In this document: positions 26,524 to 35,523 of the stretch, one piece after another
Layout: every line of letters begins with the position of its first letter
Position numbering within the stretch: the stretch's first letter is position 1
Source of the DNA: Haloglomus salinum
GTDB lineage: Archaea; Halobacteriota; Halobacteria; Halobacteriales; Haloarculaceae
Assembly (NCBI RefSeq): GCF_024298825.1
Contig: NZ_CP101153.1
Coordinates: 682,001-746,000, forward strand
Direction of reading: 5' to 3'
DNA length: 64,000 nucleotides
Translations under genes and position numbers: made by a program
Notes under the pieces: model-generated
Database searches by the model: none
What the model was told of the DNA's origin: nothing
The model's input: the letters and a program-made list of their open reading frames with translations, nothing else

Positions 26524-27048
26524 TTACTCTTCGGGGTCGTCCGAGTCCGCGACCTGTCGCAGGCGGGCCACGCCGTCACACTCCTCGAGTACGTCGACCA
26601 CGGGGTCGGGGACGAGCGACTGCCAGTCGCCGCCGTCGATGATGCGCTGGCGGACCTCGGTGCCCTGGAACTCGTCGCGGCGGTACATCTCGGACTGGCG
26701 GACCTCGATGCCGGCCTCCTCGAACAGGCGGATGACGAGCGGGTTGTTGGAGTAGGCCACGTCGAAGTTCGGGCTCATCGACTGGACGTGGCTCACCCAG
26801 ACCGCGTTGCGGTTGAGGTCCTCGATGGGGACCGCGTAGGTGAGGAGATCCATCTCCTGGGTGGCCTTCGTGATCATCATCACCCGTTCGCCGGCGGTGA
26901 ACGGGTCGTGGGGCGTGTGCGACTGGTCGGCGCTCCCGATGCCGAGGACGAGTTCGTCCACGTCCCGAGCGATGCGCTCGACCATCGCCTGGTGACCCTC
27001 GTGGTAGGGCTGGAATCGCCCGATGTAGAACCCTCGACTGGTTGCCAT
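26524..27048 (-). CDS. nadM: Nicotinamide-nucleotide adenylyltransferase (archaeal NadM type)
   Basis: 174 residues from MATSRGFYIGRFQPYHEGHQ. Converts NMN and ATP to NAD+. The nucleotidyl-transferase motif GRFQPYHEGH (HxGH type) is at 10-19, then LVLGIGSADQSHTPHDPFTA and the C-terminal VPDPVVDVLEECDGVARL. Length and motifs match the archaeal NadM family. A longer upstream frame was rejected as lacking family character. Divergent from lonB, sharing a 245-base spacer. Confidence 0.94.
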   Translation of the reverse strand: MATSRGFYIGRFQPYHEGHQAMVERIARDVDELVLGIGSADQSHTPHDPFTAGERVMMITKATQEMDLLTYAVPIEDLNRNAVWVSHVQSMSPNFDVAYSNNPLVIRLFEEAGIEVRQSEMYRRDEFQGTEVRQRIIDGGDWQSLVPDPVVDVLEECDGVARLRQVADSDDPEE

Positions 27049-27293: not shown

Positions 27294-29402
27294 ATGAGCG
27301 ATGACAACAACGCGGATGAGCACCCCGGTCGCGGGTCCGAGGACGAGGTGCCCGAGGAGGAGCACCCCGACCCGGGCATCCCGCTCGACCGGGAGGAGAG
27401 CGAGACCCCGAGCGGGCCGCCGGCGCCCGCGGACGAGTCCGACGAACTGACGGACGGGTCGGACCTCGGGAGCGATGTCACCGTCGAGGCCGGCGCGGAG
27501 GTCGAAGCCGACGAGGAGGACGGGCTGCTCGGTGGCCTCCAGATCACCTCGACCGACGACATCGAGGTCCCCGACCGCCTCGTCGACCAGGTCATCGGGC
27601 AGGACGACGCCCGCGACATCATCCTGAAGGCGGCCAAGCAGCGCCGCCACGTCATGATGATCGGCTCGCCCGGAACGGGCAAGTCGATGCTCGCGAAGGC
27701 GATGTCCCAGCTCCTCCCGAAGGAGGACCTGCAGGACATCCTCGTCTACCACAACCCGGACGACGGCAACGAGCCGAAGGTCCGGACCGTGCCCGCGGGG
27801 AAGGGCGAACAGATCGTCGAAGCACACAAGGAGGAGGCCAGGAAGCGCAACCAGATGCGGAGCTTCCTGATGTGGATCATCATCGCCGTCGTGTTCGGCT
27901 ACTCGCTGCTCATCGCCGGGCAACTCCTGCTCGGCATCCTCGCGGCGGGTGTCATCTACCTCGCGTTCCGCTACTCCTCGCGGGGCAGCGACGCGATGAT
28001 CCCGAACCTGCTGGTCAACAACGCCGACCAGCAGACCGCGCCGTTCGAGGACGCGACCGGCGCGCACGCCGGCGCACTGCTCGGCGACGTCCGGCACGAC
28101 CCGTTCCAGTCCGGCGGGATGGAGACCCCCAGCCACGACCGCGTCGAAGCGGGCGCCATCCACAAGTCCAACAAGGGCGTGCTGTTCGTCGACGAGATCA
28201 ACACCCTGGACATCCGGTCCCAGCAGAAGCTGATGACCGCCATCCAGGAGGGCGAGTTCTCCATCACGGGCCAGTCCGAGCGCTCCTCGGGCGCGATGGT
28301 CCAGACCGAGGCCGTCCCCTGTGACTTCGTGATGGTCGCGGCGGGCAACCTCGACGCGATGGAGAACATGCACCCGGCACTGCGCTCCCGCATCAAGGGG
28401 TACGGCTACGAGGTGTACATGGACGACACCATCCGTGACACCCCGGAGATGCGCCGGAAGTACGCCCGCTTTATCGCCCAGGAGGTCGAGAAGGACGGCC
28501 GGCTCCCCGCGTTCGACGAGGGCGCGATGGAGGAGGTCATCCTCGAGGCCCAGCGGCGTGCCGGGCGGAAGGAGCACCTCACGCTGGAACTGCGGAACCT
28601 CGGCGGCCTCGTGCGGGTCGCAGGCGACATCGCTCGCGCCGAGAACGCCGAGTTCACCACCCGCGACCACGTGCTGCAGGCCAAGCGCCGCAGTCGCTCC
28701 ATCGAGCAGCAGCTCGCCGACGACTACATCGAGCGCCGGAAGGACTACGAGCTCTCCGTCTCGGAGGGCCAGGTCGTCGGGCGCGTCAACGGGCTCGCCG
28801 TCATGGGCGAGGACTCCGGTATCGTCATGCCCGTCATGGCGGAGGTCACACCGGCACAGGGTGCCGGTGAGGTCATCGCCACCGGGAACCTGCAGGACAT
28901 CGCCCAGGAGGCCGTCCAGAACGTCTCGGCCATCATCAAGAAGTTCTCGGACGAGGACATCGGCAAGAAGGACATCCACATCCAGTACGTCATGTCCTAC
29001 GAGGGCGTGCAGGGTGACTCCGCCAGCGTCACGATGGCCACCGCGGTCATCAGCGCGCTGGAGGACATCCCCGTCGAGCAGGACCTCGCCATGACCGGCT
29101 CGCTGTCGGTCCGTGGCGACGTGCTGCCGGTCGGGGGCGTGACCCACAAAATCGAGGCCGCCGCGAAGACGGGCCTCGACCGGGTCATCATCCCCGCGGC
29201 CAACGAGCAGGACGTGATGATCGAGGAGGAGTTCAAGGACCAGATCGAGATCATCCCGGTCACGCACATCAGCGAGGTGCTGGAGGTCGCGCTGGCCGGC
29301 GAGCCCGAGAAGGACTCGCTTGTCGACCGGCTGAAGAACATCACCGGCTCCGCGCTGGACCGGCAGGTCGGCCGGTCGAGCGGTTCCCCCTCGCCGCAGT
29401 AA
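27294..29402 (+). CDS. lonB: Membrane-anchored ATP-dependent protease LonB
   Basis: 702 residues. An acidic disordered leader (1-80) precedes the AAA+ domain with Walker A GSPGTGKS at about 124-131. Two adjacent transmembrane helices are inserted at about 190-226 (FLMWIIIAVVFGYSLLIAGQ), typical of archaeal LonB. Walker B is GVLFVDEINTLD. The protease domain ends the protein, with catalytic Ser576 (VQGDSASVTMA) and Lys619 (GGVTHKIEAAAK). It degrades unfolded and regulatory proteins at the membrane and is essential in some haloarchaea. The CPBP gene starts two bases downstream. Confidence 0.96.
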   Translation: MSDDNNADEHPGRGSEDEVPEEEHPDPGIPLDREESETPSGPPAPADESDELTDGSDLGSDVTVEAGAEVEADEEDGLLGGLQITSTDDIEVPDRLVDQVIGQDDARDIILKAAKQRRHVMMIGSPGTGKSMLAKAMSQLLPKEDLQDILVYHNPDDGNEPKVRTVPAGKGEQIVEAHKEEARKRNQMRSFLMWIIIAVVFGYSLLIAGQLLLGILAAGVIYLAFRYSSRGSDAMIPNLLVNNADQQTAPFEDATGAHAGALLGDVRHDPFQSGGMETPSHDRVEAGAIHKSNKGVLFVDEINTLDIRSQQKLMTAIQEGEFSITGQSERSSGAMVQTEAVPCDFVMVAAGNLDAMENMHPALRSRIKGYGYEVYMDDTIRDTPEMRRKYARFIAQEVEKDGRLPAFDEGAMEEVILEAQRRAGRKEHLTLELRNLGGLVRVAGDIARAENAEFTTRDHVLQAKRRSRSIEQQLADDYIERRKDYELSVSEGQVVGRVNGLAVMGEDSGIVMPVMAEVTPAQGAGEVIATGNLQDIAQEAVQNVSAIIKKFSDEDIGKKDIHIQYVMSYEGVQGDSASVTMATAVISALEDIPVEQDLAMTGSLSVRGDVLPVGGVTHKIEAAAKTGLDRVIIPAANEQDVMIEEEFKDQIEIIPVTHISEVLEVALAGEPEKDSLVDRLKNITGSALDRQVGRSSGSPSPQ

Positions 29403-29403
29403 G

Positions 29404-30222
29404 GTGCGGTGGGCCGCGTTCGCGGGCGTCGCGGTCGCGGTCACGCTGTTGCTGCTTCTTCTGGCGCGCGCCTCACAGGGAGCCGTCGGTACGCCGCCGG
29501 CCACGCCGGGCGAGGTGCGCTGGCTCGACCGGCTGGATGACGGTGCCGACCACCTCGACGCCGGTGATGCCCCGGAGCCCGCGCCCGCGAGTCCGCTCGA
29601 GGCGTCGATGGCCAGCTCGTCGTCGATGTCCCCGGTCGTCCTGCTGGTCAACGTCGCGTTCTCGCAGGGGCTGTTCGGACTCCTCCTCCTCGCTGGAGCG
29701 TGGTACACCGGCATCCCGGCGAGCGCGTTCGGCGCCGGGAGCGGCGATGTCGGTCTCGACGCGCTCGCGGTCGGCGTAGGCTTCGGCATCGCGCTCTCGC
29801 TGGCCAACGGCGTCGCGGGCGCCGCCGCGAGCGCGCTGGGTCGCGACCCCAGCGAGGACCTCCGTGCGCTGCTCGCCCCCGACTCGGCCGGGGGCTGGGT
29901 GCTCCTGCTGGGCGTGGTCCTGCCGCTCATCGCGGGCTTCGAGGAGCTCCTCTTCCGGGGGGCACTCGTCGGCGTCATGGCGACGGGCTTTGGCTGGTCG
30001 CCCTGGCTCCTCGCACTCGCCTCGTCGGCCGCGTTCGCACTGGGGCACGGCGCACAGGGCCCCGTCGGTATCGTCGTAACGGGCCTACTGGGATTCGTGC
30101 TCGCGGCCGGCTACGTCATCACGGGGAGTCTCCTCGTGGTGGTGGTCGCCCACTACCTGGTCAACGCCGTCGAGTTCGTCGCCTACGAGGGGCTCGACCT
30201 GGAGCCGCCGTTCGGCGGCTGA
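29404..30222 (+). CDS. CPBP-family intramembrane glutamic protease
   Basis: 272 residues from a GTG start just after lonB. Several hydrophobic segments are present. The CPBP/Abi motifs are complete: Glu180-Glu181 with Arg185 (FEELLFRGALVGVM), His215 (AFALGHGAQG), and His250 with Asn254 (HYLVNAVEF). These enzymes are Rce1-like membrane proteases. The tight spacing after lonB suggests co-expression of two membrane proteases. The first 70 residues contain one helix and a Pro/Asp/Ala-rich segment. Confidence 0.87.
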   Translation: MRWAAFAGVAVAVTLLLLLLARASQGAVGTPPATPGEVRWLDRLDDGADHLDAGDAPEPAPASPLEASMASSSSMSPVVLLVNVAFSQGLFGLLLLAGAWYTGIPASAFGAGSGDVGLDALAVGVGFGIALSLANGVAGAAASALGRDPSEDLRALLAPDSAGGWVLLLGVVLPLIAGFEELLFRGALVGVMATGFGWSPWLLALASSAAFALGHGAQGPVGIVVTGLLGFVLAAGYVITGSLLVVVVAHYLVNAVEFVAYEGLDLEPPFGG

Positions 30223-30235
30223 CGCGGGTTCGCCG

Positions 30236-30820
30236 CTACAGCCCCTCCAGCGACCGGAGCTTCTGCTCGACCTTCGGTGGCGCGGAACTCGGGCCGTCCC
30301 GGACCCGGTGGTCCGGGACGACAATCGGGACGGGGTTCGCGTCCAGCGCCATCCGCACGGTCTGGAGGTCGTCCCCATCGTCGTCATCGAGGCCGGCCAG
30401 CCGCGCCAGCCGCTCGACGGAGACGTCCTCGCCGTAGGGGACGTTCCGGAGTGCCTCTAGAACGGTCCGCTGCTCGGTCGGCACCGTCAGCGCGATATCC
30501 ACGTCCTCGAACTGGTCCTTCTTCCCCTCGAGATAGGCGAAGAGGCGCTTCAACAGCGGGTACTCGTCCTCCGCACCCTCGTTGGGCTCCGCCGGGAAGG
30601 AGACGTTGATGAGCTTCTCGCTCGCGACGCCCAGCTGGACGTGGCGGTCGAGGTACGGCGACTCGCGGGCGTAGATGCCCGTCTCGTAGTCCGGGCCGGG
30701 TGCGCCGTCGTCGGTCACATCGGCCGCGTCAGCCGAGACGGCCGAGGGGTCGGCGTCCTCGGCGTCCGCGTCGGCTTTCACCGACATGTCGTCCTCGGGG
30801 GCGTCTTCGGGGTCGGGCAT
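30236..30820 (-). CDS. MGMT/Ogt-like protein with Asp replacing the catalytic Cys
   Basis: 194 residues from the ATG at 30820; a Met at 30787 or an upstream TTG are alternatives. The C-terminal domain aligns with O6-alkylguanine-DNA alkyltransferase: VPTEQRTVLEALRNVPYGED, then ARLAGLDDD, VRMALDANPVPIVVPDHRV. In the active enzyme the last motif reads PCHRV; here Asp170 stands in place of Cys. It therefore cannot act by the usual alkyl-transfer reaction and resembles alkyltransferase-like (ATL) proteins, which bind lesions without repair. The acidic N-terminal 45 residues look disordered. It follows the MOT1-type permease gene at the end of the tungstate/molybdate locus. Confidence 0.78.
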   Translation of the reverse strand: MPDPEDAPEDDMSVKADADAEDADPSAVSADAADVTDDGAPGPDYETGIYARESPYLDRHVQLGVASEKLINVSFPAEPNEGAEDEYPLLKRLFAYLEGKKDQFEDVDIALTVPTEQRTVLEALRNVPYGEDVSVERLARLAGLDDDDGDDLQTVRMALDANPVPIVVPDHRVRDGPSSAPPKVEQKLRSLEGL

Positions 30821-30846: not shown

Positions 30847-31962
30847 TCAAGCTTCGCCCGCCGTCGTCCGTTCACGGAGTCGATCGTATGCCGCGTGTCC
30901 GCCGGCGGCCAGCAGGAAGGCGATGCCGACGTTCGCGAGGAGCGCGGCGGCGCCGGTCCCGACGACCACCGCGCCCTCGGCGGGCGTCTCGACCGATTCG
31001 AGCGCCACGCGGCCGAGGTGGACCGCCACGAGGACGAGCAGCACGCCCAGGGCGGCCATCGGGAAGCCGCTCCAGAGGCCGGCGACCAGCGCGGCACCGG
31101 CGTAGAGGGCCGCGAGGACGATGTTCGCGCCGGCGGTCCGCGCGCCGAAGGCGTGCTTGCCGGCGAGGCCACCGGAGCCGTGACACATCGGCACCCCGCC
31201 CAGCGGCACCGCGAGCAGGTTGGTGACGCCCATGCTCCGGGCGAGGCCGTCGGGCGAGATGTCGCGGCTGTAGAGGTCCTCGACCAGAAGCGCCGTCGCG
31301 ACGGCGGCGTTACCGACGGTCATGGCGAGCTGGCCGGCGAGGCCGGTCAGCGCGTCCTGCGTGACCATCGGGGTCGGGAACGCCGAGAGCGTGGGAAACG
31401 CGACTGTCGGCGTCCCGCCGACGGCGTAGAGCGCCGCGAGCGTGCCCGCGAGTAGCACCGCGGGCGCGGGTGCGCGACGGTCGACGAGCGCGGCGCCGGC
31501 GGCGACGGCGACGCCACCGGCTGCCACGACGGGCGCGCCGGCCGCGAGTTCGATGCCCGCGACGAGCAGGAGGAGCGCGACCGCGAACTGCACTCCGCGG
31601 ACGACCGGGCGCCCGACGAGGCGAGCGATACGGCCGACGAGCCCGGTCGCGCCCGCGACGAGCAGGACGCCGCCGGCGAGGAGGCCGGCAGCGACGAGTT
31701 CGCCGTAGCCGAGCGTCCCGGCGATAGCCAGGCCGGCGAGCGCCTTCATCGGCTCGACGGACATCGGCAGGCCGTAGTGGAGACCCCAGACGACCTGGAA
31801 GACCGCGAACCCGAGCAACACCAGGCCGAGCGAGGCGTCGGTCAGGGCGCCCAGCGCCACGACGAGCGGGAGGACCGTAATCGAATCCCCCAGCGCGCCG
31901 GCGACCTCGCCGCGGTCGAACCGGAGCGCGACCCGCCGTCCGAATACCTCGGCAGTGGCCAT
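30847..31962 (-). CDS. MOT1-type molybdate (sulfate) permease
   Basis: 371 residues, highly hydrophobic, with about ten to twelve membrane segments. The MFS_MOT1 signatures are present: GEVAGALGDSITVLPLVVAL near 19-38, HYGLPMSVEPMKALAGLAIA near 62-81, and VPLGGVPMCHGSGGLAGKHA with FGARTAGANI near 255-285. Family members transport molybdate. It lies 93 bases downstream of the Tup ATPase gene on the same strand, so it is probably in the same operon, giving two unrelated uptake routes for oxyanions in one locus. Confidence 0.88.
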   Translation of the reverse strand: MATAEVFGRRVALRFDRGEVAGALGDSITVLPLVVALGALTDASLGLVLLGFAVFQVVWGLHYGLPMSVEPMKALAGLAIAGTLGYGELVAAGLLAGGVLLVAGATGLVGRIARLVGRPVVRGVQFAVALLLLVAGIELAAGAPVVAAGGVAVAAGAALVDRRAPAPAVLLAGTLAALYAVGGTPTVAFPTLSAFPTPMVTQDALTGLAGQLAMTVGNAAVATALLVEDLYSRDISPDGLARSMGVTNLLAVPLGGVPMCHGSGGLAGKHAFGARTAGANIVLAALYAGAALVAGLWSGFPMAALGVLLVLVAVHLGRVALESVETPAEGAVVVGTGAAALLANVGIAFLLAAGGHAAYDRLRERTTAGEA

Positions 31963-34792: not shown

Positions 34793-34818
34793 TTGCCACC
34801 GGCTCCCACAGTGTGGAT

Positions 34819-35523
34819 ATGGACCCGAACGTGACCCCGGAACTGCGGGCCGGCACGGTGGCGTTCGGTGCCGACGACGCGGCGCTCCTCCGGGCCATCG
34901 ACGAACACGGGTCGGTGAACGCGGCCGCGAGCGCGCTGGAGCGGTCGCGAGCGCGGGCGACCGGCCGGCTGGACGACCTGGAGGCCGCGTTCGGCTCGCT
35001 GGTCGAGCGCACGCGGGGCGGGACGGGCGGTGGCGGCACGGAGCTCACCTCGGAGGCCCGGCGACTGCTCGCCCGGTTCGACCGCCTCGGGACGACGCTC
35101 TCGGGGGTCGCCGCGGCCGAGGAGTGCGTGCTGGAGGGTCGGGTCCTCGACCGGGACGGGGAACTGGCCACGGTATCGACCCCGGTCGGCGAGGTACGTG
35201 CGCTCGCCCCGGCCGGCGCCGACCGGGTGCAGGTGTCGCTCCGCGCCGACGCCGTGACGCTCCACGCGCCCGACGAGGCCCCACCCGCCGGCGGAACGAG
35301 CGCGCGGAACCGGCTGGTTGGGACGGTCAGCACGGTCGAACGCGGCGAGTCGGTCGCACACGTCCGGGTCGCCGTGGAGAGCACGGCCGAGCGCCCCGAC
35401 GGGACCGTCGAACTCGTCGCGCTGGTCACGCTGGAGAGCGTCGACCGGCTGGGGCTGGCCGAGGGAACGGCGGTCGTCGCGACGTTCAAGGCGACGGCCA
35501 CGCGGGCGACCAGTACGTCGTAG
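34819..35523 (+). CDS. ModE-like molybdate/tungstate-responsive regulator (HTH + TOBE)
   Basis: 234 residues from MDPNVTPELRAGTVAFGADD. An N-terminal LysR-type helix-turn-helix spans about 22-70 (LLRAIDEHGSVNAAASALER, then RLDDLEAAFGSLVERTRGG). A TOBE/Mop-like region follows, with RNRLVGTVSTVERGESVAHV near 162-181 and LGLAEGTAVVATFKATA at the end. This arrangement matches ModE. It faces tupA and probably represses the transporter genes when the oxyanion is plentiful. A much longer upstream frame antisense to tupA was rejected. Confidence 0.88.
   Translation: MDPNVTPELRAGTVAFGADDAALLRAIDEHGSVNAAASALERSRARATGRLDDLEAAFGSLVERTRGGTGGGGTELTSEARRLLARFDRLGTTLSGVAAAEECVLEGRVLDRDGELATVSTPVGEVRALAPAGADRVQVSLRADAVTLHAPDEAPPAGGTSARNRLVGTVSTVERGESVAHVRVAVESTAERPDGTVELVALVTLESVDRLGLAEGTAVVATFKATATRATSTS

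Follow-up and report, generated by a model that had tools for sequence, protein, structure and literature searches.

An MGMT-shaped protein shared by salt-loving archaea is probably not a repair enzyme

Within the window, i.e. the whole analyzed stretch of 64,000 nucleotides from Haloglomus salinum (contig NZ_CP101153.1, positions 682,001 to 746,000), a gene for an MGMT-fold protein is located between a molybdate transporter gene and a membrane protease gene (Table 1). Alternative starts are found at an in-frame ATG (30787) and at a TTG (30850), and the plus strand frame over the same interval is broken. Residues 1-45 of the protein form an acidic extension without conserved columns in the alignment. 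The cytidylyltransferase-like gene next to LonB, which we take to be NadM-like, occurs downstream of the family gene in at least 34 of 285 genome flanks, most of which are short. On the transporter side, an ORF on the plus strand (34800-35523) was read by eye as a ModE-type-like regulator, with a helix-turn-helix followed by TOBE-like stretches; it is divergent from a substrate-binding protein and situated beside tup-like genes.

Table 1. Positions, strands and supporting evidence of the MGMT-fold gene, its protein features and its neighbors in the window.
Feature	Position	Strand	Evidence or remark
CDS, MGMT-fold protein, 194 aa	30236..30820	minus	ATG at 30820, stop 30236-30238
Two-domain alkyltransferase fold, residues 46-194	30239..30685	minus	AlphaFold2 model, VIA-align and alignment
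P169-D170-H171-R172-V173 motif, Asp at the alkyl-acceptor Cys position	30302..30316	minus	sequence and alignment
N162, Asn hinge	30335..30337	minus	286/287 in alignment
E192, Glu of the old Glu-His-Cys triad	30245..30247	minus	286/287; alignment and structural match
Acidic insertion, residues 144-151, separating the two helices of the former DNA-binding helix-turn-helix	30368..30391	minus	
MOT1 molybdate transporter (PF16983)	30847..31962	minus	local neighbor, only here and in L001
CPBP/Rce1-like membrane protease (PF02517)	29404..30222	plus	convergent neighbor
LonB protease	27294..29402	plus	linked in many members
Cytidylyltransferase-like gene (PF01467)	26524-27033	minus	next to LonB

Where MGMT has PCHRV, the minus-strand ORF reads PDHRV (in the context VPDHRV), as the sequence-only reading had noticed, and the codon of Asp170 is GAC (gtc on the plus strand at 30311-30313). 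Two base changes separate this codon from either codon for Cys, more than one misread base could account for, and the independent genome of Haloglomus halophilum (L001) also has PDHRV; a sequencing error was thereby ruled out. It had also been considered that the true Cys might lie elsewhere, but the window protein contains no Cys whatsoever and the alignment of 287 members places none at another position. The homology to MGMT was confirmed by a match to Pfam family PF01035 (36.7 bits against a cut-off of 27, only across residues 117-174), while the NCBIfam ogt model (TIGR00589) gave 29.5 bits, under its cut-off of 46.4. In the single contig of 4,190,378 bases (completeness 99.65%) this gene is the only PF01035 match, so the genome has no recognizable Cys-type MGMT, the separate repair gene for which a search had been suggested. 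A mobile or viral origin was rejected: the haloarchaeal protein found no match among phages and viral contigs, and the plasmid search returned one partial match (35.5%) in a Phocaeicola record.

By a protein search, 286 out of the 293 genomes of the order were matched, including all 255 of those with a completeness of 90% or more and a contamination of 5% or less. The family ORF itself was collected from 285 genomes. The eight others are all less than 90% complete, and in one of these (G016) the fetched match was the canonical Cys gene. With one copy counted per genome, residue 170 is Asp in 270 of the 285, Ser in seven, Thr in three, Ala and Cys in two each and Gly in one. Adding the named genomes of Haloglomus halophilum and Halococcus thailandensis (L002), both with Asp, gave the 287-row alignment, in which the motif column is D272, S7, T3, A2, C2 and G1. 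Asp is thus conserved, and as Trp is absent from all aligned members, it is indeed a variant other than the Trp or Ala of known alkyltransferase-like proteins (ATLs). Asp170 is encoded by GAC in 212 rows and GAT in 60, and the non-Asp codons are TGC, TCN, AGY, GCC, ACN and GGC; with these codons, a path from Cys via Ser and Ala to Asp would be possible by single steps. Judging from the sequences, the gene is under purifying selection (median dN/dS 0.14, maximum 0.40, in 86 independent close pairs). One genome (G015) carries two diverged family copies (L153 and L343), both with Asp. Literature searches, in which the Haloferax and Halobacterium locus tags were guesses, gave nothing recognizable on an Asp-bearing or Cys-less haloarchaeal MGMT, and no mention of alkyltransferase, methylguanine or MGMT was found in the available part of a Haloferax repair review (PMC7776575).

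The AlphaFold2 model, made with 94 aligned members, had a mean pLDDT of 97.6 and a pTM of 0.89. Full-length AGTs were ranked first by both Foldseek and VIA-align, with no other fold close, and the best VIA-align match was SsOGT (4zyd; Z 18.1, rmsd 1.9, 139 aligned residues). The ATL of S. pombe matched over 75 residues only (Z 6.2). The N-terminal domain is present in the model at high confidence and aligns to full AGTs. With AGT/MGMT/OGT proteins such as SsOGT from Saccharolobus (4zyd/4zye), the family thus shares the two-domain fold, the Asn hinge, the PxHRV frame and the His and Glu of the triad. Over the 287 rows, Pro165 and His171 are invariant, Asn162, Arg172 and Glu192 are found in 286 each, Arg118 in 285, Pro169 in 282 and Arg189 in 276. 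The conservation of the His, Arg, Asn and Glu may serve folding alone. The fold could have been retained purely as a ligand-free protein-protein module, as the tolerance of substitutions at residue 170 and a shortened active-site loop would allow; we regard such a structural relic as rather unlikely, since few columns anywhere in the protein are as well conserved as those of the pocket residues, beyond any apparent need of a scaffold.

In a tree of 90 rows, for which the bootstrap values are not fully settled, the family forms a single clade (100/99). A crown of 52 rows (100/93) has as its sister a group (94/87) of two lineages, f9 and f11, in which residue 170 is Cys or Ser. Cys170 is kept only in two genomes, both of the deepest lineages, and none was seen in the crown; this confinement to the deep sister clade indicates that the ancestor of the gene was an ordinary Cys enzyme of archaea. 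Among 93 crown rows, a residue-masked tree made by a quick method required at least eight changes between Asp and another residue. Asp hence appears strongly preferred, yet not absolutely required, and Cys was never regained.

The same organisms may also harbor a canonical Cys MGMT of the same superfamily (PF01035, PCHRV). A strong match to it, picked by E-value, was present in 109 of the 293 genomes, 107 of which also have the family gene, i.e. the two coexist and are not alternatives. In the loci that were fetched, where alone the motif was read, PCHR was found in 30 out of 30. For 178 of the 285 genomes with the family gene there was no strong canonical match. These canonical genes differ from the family in forming a separate clade (100/99), in retaining the Cys, Tyr, Gly131 and Lys, and in their patchy distribution. 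They are an unusual variant themselves (L034-L063), with Val or Ile instead of the Arg finger in 32 of 32 rows and a Cys at the Met134/Leu position.

For the residues by which MGMTs handle DNA, human numbering is used, with offsets between the anchored positions that we presume. The equivalences were derived from HMMER alignments, the VIA-align range (model 149 = human 174) and residue names in the available part of PMC10779285. We compared 92 crown, five deep, 19 other archaeal Cys and 32 canonical haloarchaeal Cys rows. At the position of the base-flipping Tyr114, Tyr is found in 5/5 deep, 19/19 other archaeal and 32/32 canonical rows, and the crown has mostly Val (65 of 92) or Leu (14). The Arg finger (Arg128) is present in 19/19 other archaeal rows, none of the canonical or deep ones and 23 of the 92 in the crown. 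At these two positions the window protein has V135 and Q153, respectively. Gly131 is invariant in the 51 Cys-group controls, whereas all five deep rows and 79 of the 92 crown rows have Arg there. Lys165 occurs in 19/19 other archaeal, 31/32 canonical and 5/5 deep rows. In most of the crown Glu or Ala takes its place, and the Leu169 position has also become Arg there (88 of 92). The alignment further shows an acidic insertion around residues 144-148 and the shortening of the active-site loop in the crown. Mean net charge over the 26 residues before the hinge was -4.2 in the crown (n=280), -6.0 in the deep lineages (n=5), -1.2 in the canonical haloarchaeal proteins (n=32) and +3.0 in the other archaeal ones (n=19). 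Halophily alone does not explain this difference, since proteins of the canonical type from these very halophiles are less acidic.

Confined to the crown are the change from Tyr to Val, the loss of the loop, the changes at Lys165 and from Leu169 to Arg, and the Asp itself. Arg131 and the acidic helix are already seen in deep Cys members, and both are therefore older than the loss of the Cys. Given these deep members, and canonical MGMTs without an Arg finger, such marks alone are no proof of lost DNA work. Still, the crown changes in the Tyr, Arg finger, Lys, Gly131, loop and helix are evidence against alkyl transfer as well as ATL-type damage sensing.

The latter had been proposed from the sequence, as sensing without repair, and would mean that O6-alkylguanine in DNA is bound unrepaired and passed to UvrABC. 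S. pombe Atl1 (3gva, 3gx4) likewise has its Cys replaced in an MGMT C-terminal domain and matches part of the fold, the pocket Pro and His are retained in the family, and Uvr proteins exist in Halobacterium, according to the available text of PMC7690668. However, the hallmarks of ATLs, as given in section 3.5 of PMC10779285, are an Arg finger, a flipping Tyr, and the lack of the N-terminal domain and Asn hinge; most ATLs have Trp in place of the Cys. In all four hallmarks the family is the reverse, as it has both the domain and the hinge and conserves neither the Arg finger nor the Tyr. Its helix-turn-helix is also more acidic than in canonical MGMTs of the same halophiles. The proposal thus found no support, and a sensor of this kind seems unlikely.

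A parallel to the altered recognition helix is found in engineered tags. SNAP-tag and SsOGT-H5 have Lys-Thr at the positions of Gly131-Gly132, and where the tag reads V-K-T-A-L the family has mostly V-R-T-A-L. The available part of PMC7216122 describes SsOGT-H5 as having lost DNA binding. Unlike the family, these tags retain the Cys and react with free benzylguanine.

The run of tup and mot1 genes, at the end of which the sequence-only reading had found the position of the gene unexplained, turned out to be uninformative for the family. MOT1 adjoins the gene in only one of the 285 genomes, that of the window, and in the related Haloglomus halophilum, and a functional tie to tungstate or molybdate uptake was accordingly rejected. 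The usual neighbor is instead a head-to-head trpCBA operon. Since flanks often span only 1.5 kb, all neighbor counts are lower bounds: trp genes were found in at least 222 of the 285 genomes, with TrpC upstream on the opposite strand in at least 213, so the tup-mot1 setting is a local replacement. Spacing between the two ATGs had a median of 108 bp in 217 measurable genomes, with few above 1 kb and few overlapping. In Halobacterium salinarum, the operon trpCBA-OE1472F is induced without aromatic amino acids, as stated in the available text of PMC4162585. As for the deep lineages (L085-L089), LonB is near the gene in three out of four f9 genomes, in a context unlike that of the crown, and a THUMP/UPF0020 RNA methyltransferase is near the gene in L088.

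The head-to-head trp arrangement, together with the helix-turn-helix ancestry, could point to a regulator of trpCBA, perhaps one whose former active-site pocket senses a ligand of aromatic or purine-like type. We consider this quite unlikely. In the genome of the window, trpC is located at 2.71 Mb, about 2 Mb from the family gene, and in f1, the family to which this genome belongs, trp genes are nearby in 20 of 60 genomes, whereas the gene itself is found in all 60. Moreover, an acidic helix is poorly suited to DNA, and the shared synteny also reaches CPBP (at least 148/285) and LonB (at least 105/285), nearly always convergent. The trp link is hence a lead rather than a result. An enzyme of nucleic-acid repair or processing, such as a glycosylase or deaminase, that works on single-stranded DNA or RNA through an Asp-His-Glu hydrolytic triad is very unlikely, for although Asp170, His171 and Glu192 are jointly conserved in most members and single-stranded binding would bypass the helix-turn-helix itself (PMC10779285, section 3.1), a catalytic Asp should not tolerate the repeated crown changes to Ser, Thr, Ala and Gly, and the surface is acidic.

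The same tolerance at residue 170 favors binding of a ligand, as by a sensor or regulator, over Asp-dependent catalysis, as far as sequences can tell. Suicide alkyl transfer requires a Cys. Without it the family protein would be incapable of this reaction, and it would no longer flip lesions out of duplex DNA. The reading we prefer, with moderate confidence, is therefore a conserved haloarchaeal pocket protein on an MGMT fold that would have been repurposed after vertical descent from an archaeal MGMT of the ordinary Cys type, no longer reading duplex DNA. Its preserved pocket, i.e. Asp170 with His171 and Glu192, would bind a free small molecule or else a partner protein. The ligand could plausibly be a heterocycle with an amino or NH group facing the Asp, where the O6-alkyl of guanine once faced the Cys. 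By analogy, single-stranded nucleic acid may be a candidate as well, as section 3.1 of PMC10779285 describes a way for AGTs to act on single-stranded DNA that does not go through the helix-turn-helix.

More tentatively, a new enzyme or metabolite sensor, now found across the order, might have arisen in the haloarchaeal ancestor from its DNA-repair alkyltransferase, with an Asp-His-Glu pocket for a free nucleobase, a nucleotide or a compound of the tryptophan pathway. This would have happened stepwise, from Cys to Ser or Ala and then to Asp, with the flipping residues and the lid loop being lost, and present-day deep lineages would still show these steps.

Pfam scores this gene as a methyltransferase domain. 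If the family protein does not repair O6-alkylguanine, 178 of the 285 genomes are without a visible direct-reversal enzyme of the MGMT type, and the function of this conserved haloarchaeal core gene would be one that its Pfam label does not give. Through the lineages in which Cys or Ser survives, each step in the loss of the catalytic residue and in the change of function becomes open to test.
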